A stretch of 46,109 bases of DNA, taken from positions 1 through 46,109 of the forward strand of contig NZ_AUIT01000014.1 in the NCBI RefSeq assembly GCF_000423845.1. The letters run 5' to 3'. Positions 306 through 11,879 of this stretch are shown one piece after another. A program made the translations under genes and the position numbers. The notes beneath the pieces were generated by a model, which searched no databases, was not told the DNA's origin, and saw nothing but the letters and a program-made list of their open reading frames with translations. The stretch comes from Thermodesulfobacterium hveragerdense DSM 12571. Lineage in GTDB: Bacteria > Desulfobacterota > Thermodesulfobacteria > Thermodesulfobacteriales > Thermodesulfobacteriaceae. How positions within the stretch are numbered: the stretch's first letter is position 1; the number at the start of each line of letters is the position of its first letter.

Positions 306-1343
306 TACTCCCAAAAGATATGCGGGAATCTGGATGGTGTTATAGATTTAAAATTAGTTGGTTGGGTTTTTAACGAAGAAAGTCCAGAGGAAAGGGTTGA
401 GGTGGTAGTTTTGATCGACGAAGAACCTGTAGCTGAGGGGGTAGCTGATCGGTTTAGAGAGGACCTACTTGATGCTGGAATCGGAGATGGTAAGCATGCT
501 TTTGCAATAGACATACCAGAAAAATTTGCTGATGGCAAAGAATATGAGATTAAAGTGGTTATTAAAAACTTAGAGAAAGAGTTAGGTTCTGTAAAGTTTT
601 CTAAAAGATATGAGGTTATATTTTTTGCCAATTGTCCGATCTGTGAAAGACGTGTAAAGTTTATATCTACAGATGATTATTATTCTTGTAGAGATGTTTT
701 GTTTTCACCTGACTGTCCTCTTAATCGTTGTGTCACTCGAGAGAGGGCAGTTGCTTATGTTCTTTTTAGAGAAATTCCTAAACAAAAATTATTTGAAGAA
801 AAAATTATCTATGAACAATCTCCCGCCTTGAGAGGCCTTTCATTATTACTAAAAAAACACGCTAAACATTACCATGCTTGTGGTTATTATCCCGATAGAA
901 ATTTTGGCGAGTATGTAAATGGTTTGAGAAATGAAAATTTAGAAGAGCTTACACTACCAGACGAAAGTGTAGACGTATGGATACATCTTGACGTTTTAGA
1001 ACACGTGTTTGATCCAATTAGAGCTATTAGGGAAATTTATAGAACCCTAAAGAAAGGTGGAATTTGTATCTTTACCACACCTACCCAACCAGGCTTATTA
1101 GAGAGCAAGCAGGTGGCTTTAAAGATGCCAGACGGAACGGTAAAAATAATAGGTAATCCCGAATATCATGGTAATCCTCAGAACCCAAAACAGGGCTCTT
1201 TGGTTACCTGGAAATACGGGTATGATTTGCCATACCTTATTCAAAGTGCTACAGGATTTGATGTAGAGGTTTTTAGATTTCAATCTTTTGAAATTGCTGT
1301 GTGTGGGCTCTATACAGAGGTTTATTTATGTAGAAAAAGATAG
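303..1343 (+). pseudogene. SAM-dependent methyltransferase gene, 5' end removed by IS insertion
   Basis: The open frame begins at the IS boundary, with no start codon in the host part before GTG at 402. Codons 320-580 encode a beta-rich accessory module (GNLDGVIDLKLVGWVF, then ADRFREDL and GIGDGKHAFAI), known as a companion of glycan-related glycosyltransferases and methyltransferases. A small cysteine pair (CPIC) follows, then a class I methyltransferase domain with LPDESVDVWIHLDVLEHV and LKKGGICIFTTPTQPG. The usual glycine-rich motif I is not obvious. The module begins upstream of the GTG, so the gene was probably cut by the IS. A shortened protein from GTG 402 with a whole methyltransferase domain remains possible. 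The substrate is unknown; cell-surface glycan modification is a guess. Confidence 0.7.
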
Positions 1344-1361
1344 TTTATGTATAGGAGAAAA

Positions 1362-1446
1362 TGCCGGGGGCGGGAGTCGAACCCGCACGGGGGTGAACCC
1401 CAGTGGATTTTGAGTCCACCGCGTCTGCCAATTCCGCCACCCCGGC
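1362..1446 (-). tRNA. tRNA-Leu (anticodon CAA)
   Basis: Read on the minus strand, the RNA starts GCCGGGG and ends CCCCGGC, giving a perfect 7-bp acceptor stem, with A as discriminator at 1362. The anticodon arm is GTGGA / CTCAAAA / TCCAC, so the anticodon is CAA. A long variable arm, typical of class II tRNAs, and a T arm containing GGTTCGACTCC follow. No CCA is encoded, so the tail must be added enzymatically. A good promoter lies 20-50 bases upstream. Confidence 0.95.
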
Positions 1447-1466
1447 GGAAAAATCTATCAAAACCT

Positions 1467-1494
1467 ATTTTAATAGAGTTTGAATTTTTGGCAA
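1467..1494 (-). promoter_or_regulatory. Promoter of tRNA-Leu
   Basis: On the minus strand TTGCCA (1494-1489) is followed after exactly 16 bases by TAAAAT (1472-1467). Transcription would start about 13 bases before the tRNA 5' end. The boxes interleave with those of the opposing yebC promoter. Confidence 0.65.
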
Positions 1495-1507
1495 GACCTA
1501 TTATACT
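1480..1507 (+). promoter_or_regulatory. Promoter of the yebC-ruvCA-cytochrome operon
   Basis: TTGAAT at 1480-1485 is followed after 16 bases by TATACT at 1502-1507, about 30 bases before the yebC start. It overlaps the opposing tRNA-Leu promoter, so the two should interfere with each other. Confidence 0.6.
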
Positions 1508-1536
1508 TATTAAAAAAATTTTTAAGGGGTGGTATT

Positions 1537-2286
1537 ATGGCTGGACATTCCCATTGGGCACAAATAAAGAGAAAAAAAGCTGTTCAAGACGCTAAAAGAG
1601 GTCAAATATTCACTAAACTTATAAGAGAAATCGTGATTGCTGTGAGGGCAGGGGGAAGCGGAGATCCTGAGCTAAATCCAAGGTTGAGGGCAGCTATACA
1701 GGCGGCAAGAGCAGCTAACATGCCCAAAGAAAACATCGAAAGGGCCATAAAAAAAGCCTTAGGGCAAGAAGAAGGGACCAACTACGAAGAGGCGGTGTTT
1801 GAAGGGTATGGTCCTGGCGGGGTTGCCATCTTGGTCCATACTATCACCGATAACAGAAGAAGGACTGTTTCTGAGGTAAGACATATTTTTAGTAAACATG
1901 GTGGTAATTTGGCAGAGCCAGGGGCAGTTTCTTGGATCTTTGAACACAAAGGATTGATCGTTGTACCTAAAAAGGATGAAGAGAAGGCTTTAGAGATAGC
2001 CATAGAAAAAGGGGCAGAGGATACCAAAGAGTATGAAAGTGAAATCGAAATCATCACAGAACCTTCTCAGTTTGAAGAGGTTAAAAAAACCTTAGAAGAA
2101 GCTGGTGTTGAGATCCTTTCTGCCAAGCTCACTTTGGTGCCCAAATCTGTTGTCCCGATCTCGGATGAACAAACAGCAAATACCCTTTTAAAACTTATAG
2201 AGGCACTTGACGATAACGACGATGTTCAGCAGGTATATGCTAACTTTGATATCCCTGAACACATCATGGAAAAACTTAATAGATGA
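1537..2286 (+). CDS. yebC: YebC/PmpR family protein (TACO1-like)
   Basis: This is a 249-residue member of the YebC/TACO1 family, the usual length. It begins with the family hallmark MAGHSHWAQIKRKKA and continues with PELNPRLRAAIQAARAANMP and a GYGPGGVAILV motif. Family members were first described as DNA-binding regulators and are now also linked to relief of ribosome stalling at proline stretches; which applies here cannot be told. The ATG at 1537 was chosen over an earlier in-frame start because the conserved N-terminus begins there, with AAGGGG upstream. It is the first gene of the operon and overlaps ruvC by four bases (ATGA). The yebC-ruvC-ruvA order is common in bacteria. Confidence 0.95.
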   Translation: MAGHSHWAQIKRKKAVQDAKRGQIFTKLIREIVIAVRAGGSGDPELNPRLRAAIQAARAANMPKENIERAIKKALGQEEGTNYEEAVFEGYGPGGVAILVHTITDNRRRTVSEVRHIFSKHGGNLAEPGAVSWIFEHKGLIVVPKKDEEKALEIAIEKGAEDTKEYESEIEIITEPSQFEEVKKTLEEAGVEILSAKLTLVPKSVVPISDEQTANTLLKLIEALDDNDDVQQVYANFDIPEHIMEKLNR

Positions 2287-2783
2287 AAATTTTAGGGATA
2301 GACCCTGGGCTCAATCATTTAGGTTATGCCTGTGTGGAAAAACTTCAGCAAGAATTTAGGGTGTTAACCTGGGGGACCATCAGTCCCCCTCAACATTTAC
2401 CCCTTCCTCAAAAGCTGGCTTTGATCTTTGAGAACCTTAAAGAAATCATAAATAAATTTTCCCCAGATTATTTGGCGTTAGAAGAGGTTTATACACGAGG
2501 GGTTGGAAATGCGACCCTAAAGCTTTCTCAGGCTCAAGCTTTGGTTTTGCTTCTCTGCGGTCTTTATAACCTTAGGTTTAAAACTTTTAACCCTAAGGAA
2601 ATAAAAAATTTTTTGACCCAGAATGGAAATGCTGAAAAACAGGATATGGTCTCTCAAATTCAGTGGTTGAATAAACACGGGGTTTTATCTTTTGTGGAAG
2701 ATTTTGAGGAAGATGGGTTAGACTCTCATAAGGTGGATGCTTTAGCAGTGGCTCTTTTATTTGGTTTTGAACTTGGAGGTTAA
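2283..2783 (+). CDS. ruvC: Crossover junction endodeoxyribonuclease RuvC
   Basis: RuvC resolves Holliday junctions by paired nicking, working with RuvAB. The 166-residue protein is full length and starts MKILGIDPG. The expected four-residue metal site is present: Asp7, Glu67 in LALEEVY, His149 and Asp152 in SHKVDALAVAL. A His at the third position also occurs in other thermophile RuvC proteins. The start overlaps the yebC stop, indicating coupled translation. ruvA follows directly; ruvB is not in this window. Confidence 0.95.
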   Translation: MKILGIDPGLNHLGYACVEKLQQEFRVLTWGTISPPQHLPLPQKLALIFENLKEIINKFSPDYLALEEVYTRGVGNATLKLSQAQALVLLLCGLYNLRFKTFNPKEIKNFLTQNGNAEKQDMVSQIQWLNKHGVLSFVEDFEEDGLDSHKVDALAVALLFGFELGG

Positions 2784-2785
2784 TT

Positions 2786-3409
2786 TTGTTTTTTGCAGTC
2801 TCAGGGGTTTTAAAAATCGTAAATCCTCCTAATAAGGCTATCATAGAAATTTTACAGGTTTTTTCCATAGAGGTTTTTGTGCCTTTAAACTTGGTAGAGT
2901 CACTTAAAACTAAGTTTATTGATAAACCGATAACCATGTATTTGGTTAGTTTTATAAGAAAAAACGAATTTTTAGAGCTTTATGGGTTTTTAGACAAAGA
3001 AACCAGGGAGCTTTTTATAAAACTGAACACCCTTTCTAAGGTTGGACCTAAACTTGCATTAAACGTACTTTCTGTTTTTTCTCCTGAAGAGCTAAGACAA
3101 GTAATCCTTGAAGCACGTTGGAAGGAACTTGCAAAAGTTCCAGGTATAGGCCCAAAAAGGGCAGAAAAACTGTTTTTAGAACTAAAGAGCCTATTTTTAA
3201 AACCCAGCCTCAAAGGGATAACCTTACCTCCAGAAAAAGAAATGGTCCTTGAAGAGGCTAAAAGCTGTCTTTTATCCTTAGGGTTTAGTTCTAAAGAGAT
3301 AGACTCAGTTTTATATAACGTTTTTGAAGAAGGGGCTACCTTAGACGAATTGATAAAAAGGGCTTTAAAGGAACTTGCACCAAGTGTTAAAGAAGAAAGG
3401 TTTGACTAA
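2786..3409 (+). CDS. ruvA: Holliday junction branch migration protein RuvA
   Basis: RuvA binds four-way DNA junctions as a tetramer and loads the RuvB motor. The 207-residue protein has an N-terminal OB-fold-like part, two helix-hairpin-helix motifs (SKVGPKLALNVLS about residue 80, VPGIGPKRAEKLFLEL about residue 117), and the C-terminal three-helix domain (EEAKSCLLSLGFSSKEID) that contacts RuvB. The start is a TTG at 2786 with GGAGG six bases upstream, two bases after the ruvC stop. The N-terminus is slightly longer and less typical than the usual short start, so it deserves an alignment. Confidence 0.93.
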   Translation: MFFAVSGVLKIVNPPNKAIIEILQVFSIEVFVPLNLVESLKTKFIDKPITMYLVSFIRKNEFLELYGFLDKETRELFIKLNTLSKVGPKLALNVLSVFSPEELRQVILEARWKELAKVPGIGPKRAEKLFLELKSLFLKPSLKGITLPPEKEMVLEEAKSCLLSLGFSSKEIDSVLYNVFEEGATLDELIKRALKELAPSVKEERFD

Positions 3410-3429
3410 AAGCTACAGGGGGTATTAAG

Positions 3430-3993
3430 ATGGACTGGGAAAGGTATTTTATCAAACCTGAAGAAGCGGTTTTGGTTGTGGTAGACGTCCAGGAAAAGTT
3501 GGTGAGAGCGATGGAAGAAAAGATAGTTTCTAAGATAATAAAAAACATAACCATTTTGGTTGAGGTAGCTAAAGTCTTAGGAATACCTGTTATCCTTACC
3601 GAACAATATCCCAAAGGGTTAGGACAAACCATAGAAGATTTAAAACAGATTCTTCCGGAATATCATCCTATCGAAAAGATAACCTTTGATTGTTGTGCAG
3701 AAGAGAAATTTTTAGCTACCTTAAGATCCTATGGACGTAATAAAGTAATTCTGACAGGTATGGAAACCCACATTTGTATCTATCAAACTGCCTTAAGCCT
3801 TCTTTCGAAAGGATATTTTGTGTTTTTACCTAAGGATGCAGTATGTAGTCGTAAAGAGGAAAACTGGAAGACAGGCCTTCAGCTTAGCATCCTTTCAGGG
3901 GCTTTACCTGTTGATACCGAAACCATCACCTTTCAACTTTTACAAAAAGCAGGAACCGAAGAGTTTAAAAAATTATCGGTTTATTTTAAATAA
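3430..3993 (+). CDS. Isochorismatase-like cysteine hydrolase
   Basis: This 187-residue protein belongs to the isochorismatase-like hydrolase superfamily (nicotinamidase, YcaC and relatives). The catalytic triad is visible: Asp19 in VVVDVQEKL, Lys83 in PIEKITF, and the nucleophile Cys116 in GMETHICIYQTAL. The LTEQYPKGLG segment is typical of the YcaC-like subgroup. The substrate cannot be read from the sequence. It lies between ruvA and the Rieske gene with short gaps, so it is probably cotranscribed. A functional link to either side is not evident. Confidence 0.85.
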   Translation: MDWERYFIKPEEAVLVVVDVQEKLVRAMEEKIVSKIIKNITILVEVAKVLGIPVILTEQYPKGLGQTIEDLKQILPEYHPIEKITFDCCAEEKFLATLRSYGRNKVILTGMETHICIYQTALSLLSKGYFVFLPKDAVCSRKEENWKTGLQLSILSGALPVDTETITFQLLQKAGTEEFKKLSVYFK

Positions 3994-3999
3994 AAAGCA

Positions 4000-4395
4000 A
4001 TGAATTCAAAAAAAAGAAAATTTTTAAGTTTTTTTTCTTTGGGCGTTTTGGGTTTTTTGACTTATGGAGTTTTTAAAAACCTAAGTAGTTTATCTTCTCC
4101 CCCACCTAAAAAGGTTATGGTTCTTTTTGAGGAGATAGAAAAAGCCAAAGATATCCTTTTTAAAGAAAACTTTATTGTGATAAAAACAGGCACTAATTTT
4201 AAGGTTTTTTCCAGGAAGTGTCCTCATTTAGGCTGTTTGCTTAGCTATTCTCTTGAAGAGGGTTTGATCGTCTGCCCTTGTCATCAAAGTAAGTTTAATC
4301 TTTATGGAAAGTTTCTCTCTGGACCTGCAAAAAAAGACCTTACTACCTTAAATTACAGACTTACTTATCAGGGTTTAGAGGTTGAGGTTTTTTAG
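4000..4395 (+). CDS. Rieske [2Fe-2S] protein of a cytochrome bc-type complex
   Basis: A 131-residue small Rieske protein. One N-terminal membrane segment or uncleaved signal (residues 8-25) follows a basic KKRKFL stretch that resembles a Tat signal with Lys-Arg in place of the twin arginines. The cluster site is complete: Cys74-Pro-His76 with Cys79, and Cys92-Pro-Cys94-His95, giving two Cys and two His ligands and the Cys79-Cys94 disulfide of high-potential Rieske centres. Its stop overlaps the cytochrome b start. It is expected to take an electron from menaquinol at the outer membrane face and pass it to a c-type haem, here probably the multihaem cytochrome. Confidence 0.92.
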   Translation: MNSKKRKFLSFFSLGVLGFLTYGVFKNLSSLSSPPPKKVMVLFEEIEKAKDILFKENFIVIKTGTNFKVFSRKCPHLGCLLSYSLEEGLIVCPCHQSKFNLYGKFLSGPAKKDLTTLNYRLTYQGLEVEVF

Positions 4396-5233
4396 CTTTT
4401 CCACCTCTCCTAAGCTCAACTTGTTTATAGCCAATCTCTGTTTGATAAGCCTTATAATCTCCATTTTATCTGGGATAGTGGTTAGTTATCATTACTTTTA
4501 TACCGAACCTCTCTACAGTGTAATTCAGTTAGAGTCATCGGTGCCTTTTGGTAGGTTCTTTAGAAGCCTTCACTATTTTTCTTCTCAACTTGCCTTAATT
4601 TCAACTTTTTTCCATCTGCTAGATAGCTTTTACAGAGGATGGCATCATAAAAAAATTTTTGTTGCCTGGTTGTTTTTGGTGTTAAGCTTTATCGTCCTTA
4701 TTTTTGTAACGTTTACCGGTTATGTGATAAGGTTTGATGAGGTAGGGAAGCTTGCAGGAAGCATAGCTGAAAATCTTTGCTTAAGCATACCTTATGTAGG
4801 AGAAGCTTTAAGAGACCTTTTGTTCCCAATTTCTAAAGGAGGTCTTTATAGAGTTTATTTAGCCCATATCTATGGTTCTTTTTTGTTAGCCATAGGGCTT
4901 TTTGTTTGGCATGCCTCGATAAAACGGGTTCTAAGCCTTAAATATGCCCCTTATCTTTACCTAAACCTGATTTTGCCCTTCATCTTTTATGTTCCTCTTG
5001 AGTCAGAGAAAGGAAAAACGGTAGTTACTGGTCCATGGTTTTTTTGGGGGGCTCAGGGACTTTTAAAGTTTTTACCCCCTTTGGGAGTACTTTTTTTAGC
5101 GGTTTTTTGGCTTGTTCTTTTAGGTTTTAAGCCTGCAAGAAAGTTTAGCCCCTGGATAGGTGGTGCTTTAATATTGTGGTTGTTAGTTTATTTTATTTTT
5201 AGCCTTATCATCTACAGAGATGCCCACACTTAA
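4382..5233 (+). CDS. Cytochrome b subunit (b6-like) of a quinol-oxidising complex
   Basis: A 283-residue membrane protein with about seven hydrophobic helices. Two pairs of haem b ligands sit on two helices: His-X13-His in SLHYFSSQLALISTFFHLL and His-X14-His in LAHIYGSFLLAIGLFVWHA. The X14 spacing on the second helix is that of the b6 type. The first part matches cytochrome b6 and the last three helices could serve as a short subunit IV. A PEWY-type Qo motif is not clear; VPLESEKG occupies a possible equivalent site. The start is a TTG at 4382, 14 bases inside the Rieske gene, and the 3' end overlaps the multihaem gene by 14 bases. Such overlaps imply coupled translation of a fixed complex. 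Confidence 0.88.
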   Translation: MRFFSFSTSPKLNLFIANLCLISLIISILSGIVVSYHYFYTEPLYSVIQLESSVPFGRFFRSLHYFSSQLALISTFFHLLDSFYRGWHHKKIFVAWLFLVLSFIVLIFVTFTGYVIRFDEVGKLAGSIAENLCLSIPYVGEALRDLLFPISKGGLYRVYLAHIYGSFLLAIGLFVWHASIKRVLSLKYAPYLYLNLILPFIFYVPLESEKGKTVVTGPWFFWGAQGLLKFLPPLGVLFLAVFWLVLLGFKPARKFSPWIGGALILWLLVYFIFSLIIYRDAHT

Positions 5234-6938
5234 ACGTTTAGCTAAGACTAAATCGTTTTGGATTTTATTAGGATTAACTATTTTCCTCTGTTTGTTCTAT
5301 TCTGAAGCTAAAAAAGACAGACGAGAGGTTGCTAAGTTAACCTCAGGTGAGGTAGAGTTATGTATCACTTGTCATCAGGAGGTAGTCCCTGAAAAGGTGC
5401 ACGAAAAAAAGGTCGTTGGTTGTTCTTCCTGTCATTTAGGGAATCCCTATACGTTAGACTTTAAAGAGGCCCATAAAAACATAGTAAAAAACCCCGGGGA
5501 TCTGAGATATGTTAATCTTACCTGTGGACAACTAGGCTGTCATCCTACTGAGATATCGAAGGTAAAAAATTCTCTTATGGCTACCAATCATGGAATGATA
5601 AAAAGAGTCCTCGAAGTTTTTGAAGAAAAAGAGGTTTTATCTTTATATCCTAAGTTGAGTGTATCTCAACTTTATCACAGGGAGGTTTATCATAAAACCA
5701 GAAACAGCTTAGGTTTAGACTATTACCGAAAACTTTGTGGCAGTTGTCATCTTTGGTTAGAAAAGGGAAAACTCCCCTATTTTTTGAAAGAAAAAGGAGG
5801 GGGATGTTCTGCCTGTCATTTGGTAAAGGAGGAAGATGAGAGCCTCAATTCTTCTCGAAAAACCCATCCTAAACTGGTTAGATATCCTCCGATGGAAAAC
5901 TGTGTAAGGTGCCATAACCGAAGTGGGAGGATAGGTTTTACCTACCAAGGACTTTATGAAAATGAACAAGGAGGGGTAGGGGATGAAGTTTGGGTTGACG
6001 GAAGATGGTTAGATCGGGTTTCTCCTGACATTCATTTCCAAAAAGGGTTAAAATGCGTAGACTGCCATACTAAAGAAGAAGTGATGGGAGATGGGAATTT
6101 TTACTACAGTTTGCATGAGGCTTTAGAAATCGAATGCCAAACCTGTCACGGAGGAGATGGGACTACTAAAAAAGGAAGGAAACTAAAAAATTTTCAGAAA
6201 AAAGGGACTCAGGCTTATTTAGAAATTAAAGGTTCTGAAAAACTACTTTTAATCAAAAAATCGGTTAGAGCTTGTAGCCTTTCTTATCATAAACGATTAA
6301 CCTGTGTGAGCTGTCATGCCAAACATATGCCTGATTGCTATGGCTGTCACATAAAATATGACCCAAGAGACACCCATCTTGACAAAATACTTGCTAAGGA
6401 AACGAAGGGGCTCTGGATAGAGCATGAATCTTATAGAAGACTTGCACTTCCTACTTTAGCGGTGGAAGATAATCAAAGAGTGGTTACCGTTACCCCAGGC
6501 TGACAGGATTTTATCACCATCCTCTCAGAGACAGGAGAGGTAAAAAAAGAAATAACAAGCCTTACCTTTGCTAAACTTAACCCTCATAGCACGGGGAAAC
6601 AGGGGCGTTCTTGTAAAAGTTGCCATCAAGACACAAAAACCTTAGGGTTAGGGTATGGAAAGGTGGTAAAAGGTAAAAATTCTATAGAGGTTGTAAACTT
6701 AGAAAAACCTTTTCTAAAATCTCCGCGGGTTTGTCTTTCTCAGATGGTTACCCTTAACGGAACTAAGCTGGTCAATTTTTCTCGGCCAAATCTTCGTCCT
6801 TTTAGTCAGGAGGAACTGGTAAAAATTTTAAGGGTGGGTTTTTGTCTAAACTGCCATTCTGAAAAGGATAAGATTTTTAAAAAATGGCCTCCTAAAAAGG
6901 TTTGCCCTTATGCTAAAAAATTTCAAATCAATTTCTAA
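5220..6938 (+). CDS. Multihaem c-type cytochrome with in-frame UGA (possible selenoprotein)
   Basis: The N-terminus has one membrane segment (residues 12-30), then a periplasmic domain with 11 CXXCH sites and one CX4CH site (CGQLGCH). The first 427 codons carry ten of these sites. At 6501-6503 a TGA interrupts the frame, yet the same frame stays open for 144 more codons with two further haem sites (CKSCH, CLNCH) and ends at TAA 6936-6938. Read through, the product has 572 residues with the UGA at residue 428, in the context TPG-UGA-QDF. A hairpin suited to a SECIS element follows. The 3' end resembles the C-terminus of other large multihaem cytochromes, so the UGA is either selenocysteine or a recent nonsense mutation. 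CSLSYH near residue 355 looks like a haem site that lost a Cys. The protein is the likely electron acceptor of the Rieske/cytochrome b pair encoded just upstream. Confidence 0.8.
6521..6540 (+). promoter_or_regulatory. Candidate bacterial SECIS hairpin after the in-frame UGA
   Basis: CCTCTC (6521-6526) pairs perfectly with GAGAGG (6535-6540) around an 8-base loop AGAGACAG. The loop starts 23 bases after the UGA and has G as its second base, which agrees with the general bacterial SECIS pattern. A weaker lower stem is possible between TTTTA (6509-6513) and TAAAA (6541-6545). Folding and conservation have not been tested. Confidence 0.5.
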
Positions 6939-8137
6939 GAGTCTTCTGAGTTTAGATGTTGAATAACCTTAGGTATTAGAAGAAAAGCAGGGAGAGAAAC
7001 CAGAAAGGTTATACCAAAAAATAAGGTATACCCTAAATAGGTGGTTAAAACCCCTGATAAGCTTCTTGATAAGGTTAAAGAAAGGCTAAACAGAGTAGAA
7101 AAAACCGCATACTGGGTTGAAGAAAACTCTTTCTGACAGAGTTTGGTAAGAAAGGTAACAAAGGCTGCTGTGCCAAGGCCTCCGGTAAAGCTTTCGATTA
7201 CAGAGGCTAAATAAACAGTCTCTTTGGGAAGAGCTGAAATAGAGGCGAAGGTATAACCTAAGTTGGAAAAGGCTTGAAATAAACCTAATGTTAGCAAGGA
7301 TTTTTTGGCCGTCCATCTGCTGGAAAGATATCCTCCTAAAAGGGACCCCAGTATGGTAAGAATACTTCCGATAGACCCTGCGATCATCCCTATTTCTAAC
7401 CGGGAAAAACCTCTGTCCACCCAAAAGGGATAAACCATCGCCCCAAGCAAAGAATCCCCTATTTTGTAAGTAAAGACAAACAAGAGAAGGGTGAAAACCC
7501 CTTTCCTTTTTAGTATCTCAGCGATGGGTAGAATAAACTGCTCTTTTAGAGAATAAGTTTTTTTAGGTGGGTTGTGTTTAAGAAAAGGGTTGAGTAGTAA
7601 AAACAGCCCTATGGATAAACCTATAAGAAAGATTAGATAAAATACCGGTTTAAACCCTAAGTAATGGCTTACCGCAACCAACCCACCTCCAAAAGTAATC
7701 AGGGCTAATCGATAGGCTGCTATCCTTAGGCCATTGGCTTTTCCTAAGGTAGCAGTAGGGATCCACTCTACCACAAAACCATCGGCAGCGGTATCAAAAA
7801 CCGAAGAAAAAAAACAAAGCAGGATAAGCAAGATGAAAAAGGTGAGTCCTTGGGGAGGAGTAAAGGCTAAAGATAAGATAACTATCCCGATGTTTATTAA
7901 AGATATTCCCATCCAAAAAGTTTTATTAAAATACCGGTCTATCAAAGGAGCCCAGAAAAGTCTTAGACTCCAGGGCAAACTTGCTAAAGAAAAAAGTCCG
8001 ATGTGTAGCAAACTTATTCCTTCTGTCCTTAAAAATACAGGAATAAAGGTATAGAAAAACCCAAAAGGAAGGCCAGAAAAGAAATAGATAAGACTTAGAT
8101 AAATAAGTTTTTGAGTTTCTTCTGGGAATTTTCGCAT
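6935..8137 (-). CDS. Major facilitator superfamily transporter, AmpG-like
   Basis: A 400-residue integral membrane protein with about 12 predicted helices. The opening resembles the AmpG/PAT group of MFS carriers: SGLPFGFFYTFIPVFLRTEG and the LPWSLRLFWAPLIDR motif after helix 2. AmpG imports anhydromuropeptides during cell-wall recycling, but related carriers move other solutes, so the substrate stays open. The ATG at 8137 was preferred to an upstream TTG at 8203 because the conserved sequence starts there. The stop overlaps the multihaem cytochrome stop by four bases in a convergent arrangement, with no terminator between. Confidence 0.8.
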   Translation of the reverse strand: MRKFPEETQKLIYLSLIYFFSGLPFGFFYTFIPVFLRTEGISLLHIGLFSLASLPWSLRLFWAPLIDRYFNKTFWMGISLINIGIVILSLAFTPPQGLTFFILLILLCFFSSVFDTAADGFVVEWIPTATLGKANGLRIAAYRLALITFGGGLVAVSHYLGFKPVFYLIFLIGLSIGLFLLLNPFLKHNPPKKTYSLKEQFILPIAEILKRKGVFTLLLFVFTYKIGDSLLGAMVYPFWVDRGFSRLEIGMIAGSIGSILTILGSLLGGYLSSRWTAKKSLLTLGLFQAFSNLGYTFASISALPKETVYLASVIESFTGGLGTAAFVTFLTKLCQKEFSSTQYAVFSTLFSLSLTLSRSLSGVLTTYLGYTLFFGITFLVSLPAFLLIPKVIQHLNSEDS

Positions 8138-10922: not shown

Positions 10923-10951
10923 ATTATAAAACACAAATTATTCTAATTCAA
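10923..10951 (-). promoter_or_regulatory. Possible promoter of the rhodanese-radical SAM pair
   Basis: On the minus strand TTGAAT (10951-10946) is followed after 17 bases by a perfect TATAAT (10928-10923), inside the very end of the upstream gene and about 30 bases before the rhodanese start. Confidence 0.5.
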
Positions 10952-11879
10952 GAGGAAAGGGGTTTAAAAAGACCTGGTTTTTGAGGTAATGGTCTTCAAA
11001 CCTAAACGTCCAGGCTCTAAGAATTTCAAGAAGGGTGTTTTTGGAAGCTTTCCCTTTTTTGTAGCGTTCTATCAACCATAGAAAGTGTTTCCTTTCTCCA
11101 GGTGTTAGTTTAGAAGAGAAATGGCCAAACACATGAAGTAATACATTTATTTCCTTTCCTTTTGTAGGAGGTTGAGATAAGACTTTTTTAAAAAGGGTTT
11201 TGTAGTTTTCCAAGGTTTGATTAAAAGGGAAAATTTTTCCCCAGGCAACCAGTTGTCCTAACTTTTTAAGTCCTTCTGGTGAATAGCTCATCAAAAGATA
11301 TTTATATCTTTGATGAAAGGCTATAAGGTCTTTGAAAGATTCTGCTTTGGTTAAAAAGTTTCTTAGGTCTGCCAGACTAAAAATCTTTGTGAGAAAGTTT
11401 TCTCTAATAAAAGGATCATGAAGCCTTCCGTCGTCTTCGACAGGAATGTCAGGAAAGATTTTCTCAGCCTCTATCGCAAAAATACCCTTTCCTCTACCGA
11501 TAGGAAAGGTGCCTTCTCTATCTTTATACCAGCGGGTTCCAGAAACTCCGCAGGAAGGAGATCGACTTTTTAACAAAAAACCGTCTATATCTTTAAGGTT
11601 CTCAAGAAATTTTTTAGAAAAGTTTAACATTTCTTCTGTCAAATCTCTTTTTTTAGCTGGTTGAAAGACTCCAAGTTTCCCCTCTTTTTTGTAGACAATA
11701 ATCCTATCTCGTGGTACAGGAAGACCTATGTCTACTTCTGGGCAAACCTTTACAAACTCACAGAAATTAGAGAGTTTTTTAGATAAAGGAAAAATAATAG
11801 GATTTCCGTCATATCTCGTGTTTTCTCCTAAAAGGCAGGTGCTTATAACCAACTTAGGTTTTAGGTGATTTGTGTCCAT
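10938..11879 (-). CDS. DUF523 and DUF1722 protein (YbgA-like)
   Basis: A 313-residue two-domain protein. The first half is DUF523, with conserved cysteines in STCLLGENTRYDG, KVCPEVDIGLPVPRD and KSRSPSCGV. The second half (from about residue 190) is a DUF1722/YbgA-type helical domain with HQRYKYLLMSYSPEGLKKLG. The same fusion occurs in many bacteria. No biochemical role is firmly assigned; the cysteines could bind a metal or an Fe-S cluster. The gene is monocistronic or leads the rhodanese-radical SAM group, 43 bases before the rhodanese start. Confidence 0.85.
   Translation of the reverse strand: MDTNHLKPKLVISTCLLGENTRYDGNPIIFPLSKKLSNFCEFVKVCPEVDIGLPVPRDRIIVYKKEGKLGVFQPAKKRDLTEEMLNFSKKFLENLKDIDGFLLKSRSPSCGVSGTRWYKDREGTFPIGRGKGIFAIEAEKIFPDIPVEDDGRLHDPFIRENFLTKIFSLADLRNFLTKAESFKDLIAFHQRYKYLLMSYSPEGLKKLGQLVAWGKIFPFNQTLENYKTLFKKVLSQPPTKGKEINVLLHVFGHFSSKLTPGERKHFLWLIERYKKGKASKNTLLEILRAWTFRFEDHYLKNQVFLNPFPLELE

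Follow-up and report, generated by a model that had tools for sequence, protein, structure and literature searches.

A Rieske/cytochrome b gene pair followed by a 12-haem ExtM-superfamily cytochrome with a probable selenocysteine in Thermodesulfobacterium hveragerdense

In Geobacter, the ext cluster (extHIJKLMNOPQS) encodes the 12-haem cytochrome ExtM, the Rieske protein ExtO and the b-type cytochrome ExtP beside a proposed selenocysteine (Sec) cytochrome, ExtKL (PMC5877670), and ext clusters have been linked with extracellular electron transfer (PMC5877670; PMC11976967). The early proposal of a Sec cytochrome concerned GSU2937 and GSU2936, i.e., ExtKL (PMC1914089), and another study deals with other selenoproteins (PMC2702500). 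ExtM is absent from Table 1 of a catalogue published in 2026, which covers 119 families of prokaryotic selenoproteins and includes ExtKL, GSU2204 and an octahaem protein of the tetrathionate reductase family (PMC13188914); likewise, searches of open-access papers gave no report of Sec in ExtM. Here, a stretch of 46,109 nucleotides from T. hveragerdense DSM 12571 (contig NZ_AUIT01000014.1; hereafter the window) was analyzed, which carries genes for a Rieske protein, a cytochrome b and a multihaem cytochrome at positions 4000–6938. As in Geobacter, a Rieske protein and a b-type cytochrome are combined in one set with a 12-haem cytochrome of the same superfamily; the large multihaem acceptor, which an earlier note on this DNA (the original prediction) had taken to be exceptional, is therefore already present in the published ext cluster (PMC5877670). 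The unusual feature of the locus is instead an in-frame TGA, read here as selenocysteine, which was overlooked in that note. The features concerned are the following.

4000–4395, plus strand: Rieske 2Fe-2S protein of 131 residues, ExtO-like (Pfam PF00355, 2.4e-11)
4382–5233, plus strand: cytochrome b of 283 residues with a TTG start, ExtP-like but longer (Pfam PF00033, Cytochrome_B, 6.9e-14)
5220–6938, plus strand: membrane-anchored 12-haem c-type cytochrome of 572 residues, putative Sec-ExtM type (read-through translation; NCBIfam ExtM, 313.4 bits)
6501–6503, plus strand: in-frame TGA, predicted Sec428 in the motif TPG(U)QD (codon alignment of relatives)
6521–6540, plus strand: hairpin of the selenocysteine insertion sequence (SECIS) type with a stem of 6 base pairs (CCTCTC/GAGAGG) and a loop of 8 nucleotides, AGAGACAG (published bacterial SECIS model, PMC13188914)

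Translated from position 5220, the cytochrome gene comprises 427 codons with 10 haem sites, the TGA and then 144 codons with two further haem sites; the original prediction treated 5220–6938 as a single open frame and read through the TGA without mention. In all 110 relative loci that were aligned, the corresponding codon is either TGA (39) or a cysteine codon (TGC 48, TGT 23), which is the pattern of a bacterial selenoprotein with Cys-containing homologues. These loci consist of the best 30 obtained when 395 genomes of the phylum were searched, 81 of which matched, and 80 kept from 464 relatives in named genomes; some genomes are included twice, and the set reduces to 100 distinct contexts of 120 nucleotides (34 with TGA, 66 with Cys) as well as to 100 distinct proteins. 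Beyond the best 30 loci there are 11 further close-family genomes, of which G228 (L137) alone was read at this column. More distant ExtM-type proteins (n = 40) have Cys in 39 cases and TGA in one, and the neighbouring ExtN-type paralogues (n = 22, L143 being omitted because its sequence misses the column) have Phe (11), Tyr (8), His (2) or Gly (1) and never Cys. Residue 428 (Cys or Sec) and Gln429 are invariant in 140 of 140 aligned proteins. Differences from L020 fall on codon positions 1, 2 and 3 in 73, 52 and 198 cases ahead of the TGA and in 19, 17 and 64 cases past it; the persisting third-position bias indicates that coding constraint continues downstream. Judged from these alignments, TGA 6501–6503 is very probably a selenocysteine codon and the cytochrome a selenoprotein.

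The hairpin downstream of the TGA is in line with this assignment. The published bacterial model asks for a loop of 3–9 nucleotides with G in one of its first two positions, a stem of 4–16 base pairs, a distance of 16–37 nucleotides from the UGA and a minimum free energy of at most -7.5 (PMC13188914). With G at loop position 2, a loop beginning 23 nucleotides past the TGA and -8.9 kcal/mol, the window hairpin fits this model, though it is unexceptional against shuffles (z -0.72). Across the distinct contexts, a hairpin was detected in 33 of 34 Sec genes as compared to 29 of 66 Cys genes, the latter being about the shuffle level, and the mean hairpin score was 10.9 for Sec and 3.7 for Cys genes (codon-shuffle means of 4.5 and 4.4); its stem shifts register between lineages. 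The source genome possesses the Sec machinery, namely a tRNA-Sec found by two programs (80.3 bits), SelB (384 bits) and SelA (611 bits). In a FastTree tree computed without the Sec column, to which the warnings on long branches and composition apply, Sec needs two changes, and all 35 Sec rows belong to one clade of 36 rows, the only Cys member of which, L050, is nested inside it. This locus, from a metagenome-assembled genome of Caldimicrobium thiodismutans (L050:2515–2559), has TGC at the Sec codon and has kept a SECIS-like hairpin, and is a probable recent Sec-to-Cys reversion.

As regards the protein itself, the best NCBIfam match of the cytochrome is ExtM (NF040943) with 313.4 bits against a cut-off of 800, and Pfam places it among class III cytochrome families; by these profile scores it is a distant ExtM homologue outside the curated equivalog. 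The 12 haem sites of the original prediction were confirmed when counted across the TGA: 11 CX2CH and one CX4CH motif, 10 before and two after Sec, behind an N-terminal hydrophobic anchor. R234, R237, D270, D281, E401, Q429 and E532 are invariant in the 140 aligned rows. Outside the haem motifs only six histidines (H61, H85, H216, H272, H357 and H456) are conserved in 101 of 101 close rows, so that not every one of the 12 haems has a conserved second histidine, and it is possible that some haems are open or methionine-ligated. An AlphaFold model computed from 140 sequences (mean predicted local distance difference test, pLDDT, 91.7; predicted template modelling score 0.87) places Sec at a turn between strands 420–425 and 430–435 in a beta-rich region between haem motifs 10 and 11; an earlier model from 28 sequences (mean pLDDT 56.5) was poor and was set aside. 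The source genome also encodes a second multihaem cytochrome (L191:582–1829, minus strand; contig C2 near 94255–94959) of 415 residues with nine CX2CH motifs and a lipobox-like N-terminus, a paralogue of the ExtM/ExtN kind (ExtM 81.6 bits, ExtN 70.6 bits) in which the Sec region is unmatched.

The two genes ahead of the cytochrome were found where the original prediction had placed them, with overlaps of 14 bases both between the Rieske and cytochrome b genes and between the latter and the cytochrome gene. All 13 aligned sequences share CPHLGC and CPCHQS of the Rieske motif (CPHLGC / CPCHQSxF). The window protein has Phe at a position that is usually Tyr in high-potential Rieske proteins; hence the label "high-potential" lacks support. 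The cytochrome b consists of a b6-like N-terminal half and a short C-terminal part with a GPWFF motif. Its haem-b ligands H64, H78, H162 and H177 are kept in 13 of 13 aligned relatives, in agreement with the predicted b6-like protein with four haem ligands, and the second histidine pair has the 15-residue spacing of b6. GPWFF is equally invariant (13 of 13), GPWF standing in place of the usual Qo motif PEWY; other PEWY variants exist, but the replacement makes the claim of a "complete" bc-type quinol-oxidising chain too strong. The best NCBIfam match is ExtP (NF040969) with 82.2 bits against a cut-off of 290, and the protein is, on this score, an ExtP homologue outside the curated equivalog.

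Compared with the described systems, the set thus has the ExtO, ExtP and ExtM homologues in the order O-P-M and stays below the curated ExtM and ExtP cut-offs, and its cytochrome b is longer (283 residues) than the corresponding open reading frames of 206 and 226 residues in the loci L146 and L150. The ext-like cluster L150 (genome G063) carries ExtKL with a TGA and an ExtM-type protein with Cys at the Sec column, whereas the window cytochrome has the TGA there. ExtKL was not found in the source genome or in six sampled congeners in a search at E 1e-10. ExtKL and MccSep (PDB 9wt8, 9wt9; NF040886) are multihaem c-type cytochromes with one Sec as well, but they represent a different five-haem family: the window cytochrome scored 23.5 bits (E 0.019) against it through the haem motifs only and showed no homology to it beyond these. 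The ExtKL of L150 matched MccSep with 772 bits, which identifies the PDB MccSep entries as ExtKL-type. A second, divergent ExtKL-like cytochrome with one in-frame TGA was seen in several genomes (G128:C1:1525459–1526607, G269:C1:242524–243528 and others). Another catalogued Sec multihaem cytochrome, the octahaem tetrathionate-reductase-family selenoprotein (TIGR04315; PMC13188914), did not turn up when the window cytochrome was matched to NCBIfam at E 0.1. With bc1 and b6f complexes the set shares a Rieske protein and a cytochrome b with four haem histidines; it differs in the PEWY-type motif, in the absence of an adjoining separate subunit IV gene and in the adjacent acceptor, which is the 12-haem cytochrome rather than c1 or f, the remaining genome not having been searched for the latter two.

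Among 14 genomes of the taxonomic order of the source organism that carry the cytochrome, 11 show the gene order Rieske, cytochrome b, cytochrome; the other three, of the Caldimicrobium type, have the Rieske–cytochrome b pair after ruvC-ruvA and the cytochrome elsewhere. The complete order was found in 21 loci, some of them from the same genome, and all with Sec. Where the cytochrome is unlinked, the pair stays together, and all 29 cytochrome b loci that were fetched (27 of them distinct) have a Rieske motif directly upstream, as counted with a pattern that demanded a PWFF-type motif. Within the phylum, the same 41 of 395 genomes carry both the close-family cytochrome (E below 1e-80) and the long cytochrome b (at least 238 bits in 40 genomes; a partial match of 166 bits in G156), even when the genes lie far apart, nine more genomes hold second-tier versions of both, and three congeners (G100, G180 and G345) have neither. 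The thresholds were chosen after the lists had been viewed and the genomes are related, so that 41 of 41 does not amount to 41 independent events and a hypergeometric value calculated for the overlap has no meaning as a probability. Gene order together with genome-by-genome co-occurrence supports well the association of the three proteins in a complex.

Following this, we propose a compact quinol-oxidising module in which a short b6-like cytochrome b is combined with a Rieske protein anchored in the membrane and which has as its acceptor a periplasmic 12-haem selenocytochrome of the ExtM superfamily, anchored in the inner membrane, with Sec taking part in periplasmic substrate reduction; we regard this reading as likely. 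UGA 6501–6503 would be decoded as Sec428 by SelB and tRNA-Sec, aided by the hairpin that follows it closely, and all 12 haems would be carried by the full-length product alone. Quinol would be oxidised at the cytochrome b/Rieske site, and electrons would pass from the Rieske cluster to the haem chain, where Sec at the tip of the predicted beta-hairpin between haems 10 and 11 may help to reduce a small periplasmic substrate, a sulfur or selenium compound being a first guess. We favour a catalytic function of Sec within a periplasmic reductase supplied by quinol, since none of the ExtM-type proteins examined has a residue other than Cys or Sec at this column, which adjoins the invariant Q429, and since one clade appears to have switched to Sec, a change seen in many redox enzymes; the invariant residues given above and the few conserved free histidines, the latter suggesting that some haems may be open, also count for catalysis.

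Several observations weigh against this proposal. Most relatives (71 of 110 loci) have Cys instead of Sec, which implies that neither the fold nor the reaction strictly requires Sec. The window hairpin taken alone is weak, as 47 of 200 shuffles fold equally well, and the Sec gene L022 has no hairpin under the strict rule. SelB was found in 47 of 47 genome entries (T. thermophilum being counted twice, as G227 and G397), in Sec and Cys genomes alike, and therefore does not discriminate between them. Foldseek returned no match of the model in the PDB at E 0.001, and in VIA-align comparisons with 156 chains the best Z was 3.1 (6qvm, an undecahaem cytochrome), followed by 3.0 (6i5b, OcwA). Finally, in genomes of the Caldimicrobium and Desulfobulbaceae types the cytochrome gene lies apart from the Rieske–cytochrome b genes.

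A possible, if rather unlikely, alternative is that the Sec/Cys residue has a structural function or serves as an axial ligand of a haem and that the cytochrome, as a large replacement of c1, only relays electrons onward to further acceptors in the periplasm or outside the cell. With few free histidines conserved for 12 haems there is room for a selenium or sulfur ligand, Tyr, Phe or His in the ExtN-type paralogues are partly compatible with a changed ligand, and onward transfer would fit ext clusters being tied to extracellular electron transfer (PMC5877670; PMC11976967); on the other hand, Phe and Gly are non-ligands, and a ligand role alone leaves the gain and retention of Sec in one clade unexplained. 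It is improbable that the Rieske–cytochrome b pair and the cytochrome belong to separate pathways and co-occur through shared ancestry or lifestyle only, as could be argued from the unlinked genes outside most of the order and from the relatedness of the sampled genomes: the two are jointly absent from G100, G180 and G345 of the same genus, first and second tiers match, the three genes overlap tightly in 11 of the 14 genomes, and ExtO, ExtP and ExtM are encoded in one published cluster (PMC5877670). We consider it very unlikely that the TGA acts as a selenium-controlled stop, with a functional 10-haem truncated form made without selenium and a functional 12-haem form with it; Sec decoding does depend on selenium supply and the N-terminal 427 codons alone hold 10 haem sites, but in the Cys relatives the protein is made at full length in every case, and conservation of the C-terminal part equals that of the remainder. 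A pseudogene or a sequencing error, as the split into two open reading frames under the standard code might suggest, is hardly credible and is already contradicted by the alignment, in which 34 distinct contexts share the TGA at this column and every other has Cys; the third-position bias, moreover, carries on beyond the TGA.

If the proposed Sec-containing acceptor is confirmed, it would enlarge by one family the small group of multihaem cytochromes for which selenocysteine is known or predicted, and would connect this residue with a membrane module for quinol oxidation. As related genera hold natural versions with Sec and with Cys, the benefit that selenium brings to a multihaem protein could then be tested directly. 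Moreover, a reading by the standard code cuts such genes at the TGA, whereby two haems and the key residue are lost. The partnership of the pair with the cytochrome in many relatives, cable bacteria included, could be an overlooked respiratory complex. In its widest form the proposal would be that of a Sec-dependent quinol-fed periplasmic reductase with a Sec/Cys active site, the pair and its ExtM-type cytochrome being a widespread alternative complex III/terminal reductase of sulfur-metabolising Thermodesulfobacteriota and also the unrecognised quinol-oxidising complex of cable bacteria; taken as a whole, this is tentative and in our view unlikely. The Rieske–cytochrome b pair and a Cys cytochrome are present in each of the four named cable-bacterial genomes that were tested (L068, L095, L103 and L113) and also in Desulfobulbus sp. 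F5 (L069), which the tree places with Electronema. In the loci L198, L199, L201 and L202 of cable-bacterial genomes and Desulfobulbus sp. F5, the pair follows a gene that we take to be coaD-like. Cable-bacterial CytB and Rieske proteins have already been drawn in an earlier genome paper (PMC10030654); for these organisms only the proposed cytochrome partner is thus new relative to that drawing.

The source genome (1.73 Mb, 42 contigs) was most similar in our searches to that of T. thermophilum DSM 1276 (L047), with 95% identity over the cytochrome protein. Upstream of the Rieske gene the window carries the following genes.

1537–2286, plus strand: yebC, a YebC/PmpR family regulator (NCBIfam PRK00110, 352.7 bits)
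2283–2783, plus strand: ruvC-like gene (NCBIfam RuvC, 99.2 bits, below the cut-off of 163)
2786–3409, plus strand: ruvA (NCBIfam TIGR00084, 138.3 bits, cut-off 85)
3430–3993, plus strand: isochorismatase-family hydrolase (Pfam PF00857, 4.6e-32), between ruvA and the Rieske gene

The PRK00110 match starts at residue 20 of the open reading frame listed from 1480, and yebC is an upstream neighbour outside the complex. As predicted, yebC-ruvC-ruvA lie upstream on the same strand; they are not directly joined to the Rieske gene, the isochorismatase-family gene intervening, which is found in L047 too and is missing at the same place in L048. The scan of 1200–7200 gave promoter-like sites at chance level (15 against 11.3, standard deviation 3.1) and two terminator-like sites, none of them within 3409–5220. 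The supposed link to DNA repair holds in so far as close relatives share the ruvCA neighbourhood: in the Caldimicrobium-type loci L179, L182 and L185 the pair also follows ruvC-ruvA (checked by NCBIfam for L182), which makes this neighbourhood a family feature. It is conserved only in close relatives, other lineages having different upstream genes, and does not point to a DNA-repair role. In those lineages the pair sits after genes that are presumably queH/DUF2905-like, rlmD-like or coaD-like, judged by sequence resemblance, and the Cys cytochrome of the Desulfobulbaceae type follows what we take to be an NAD synthetase-like gene in 37 of 70 named loci (the 80 named loci minus 10 without a called gene at the column). 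Two further observations concern the window: ruvC and ruvA (2283–3409) have no adjacent ruvB, and a DUF523/DUF1722 fusion protein encoded on the minus strand at 10938–11879 has Cys in the motif SPSCG, the Sec form (SxSUG) of the DUF523 family being listed in the 2026 catalogue (PMC13188914).

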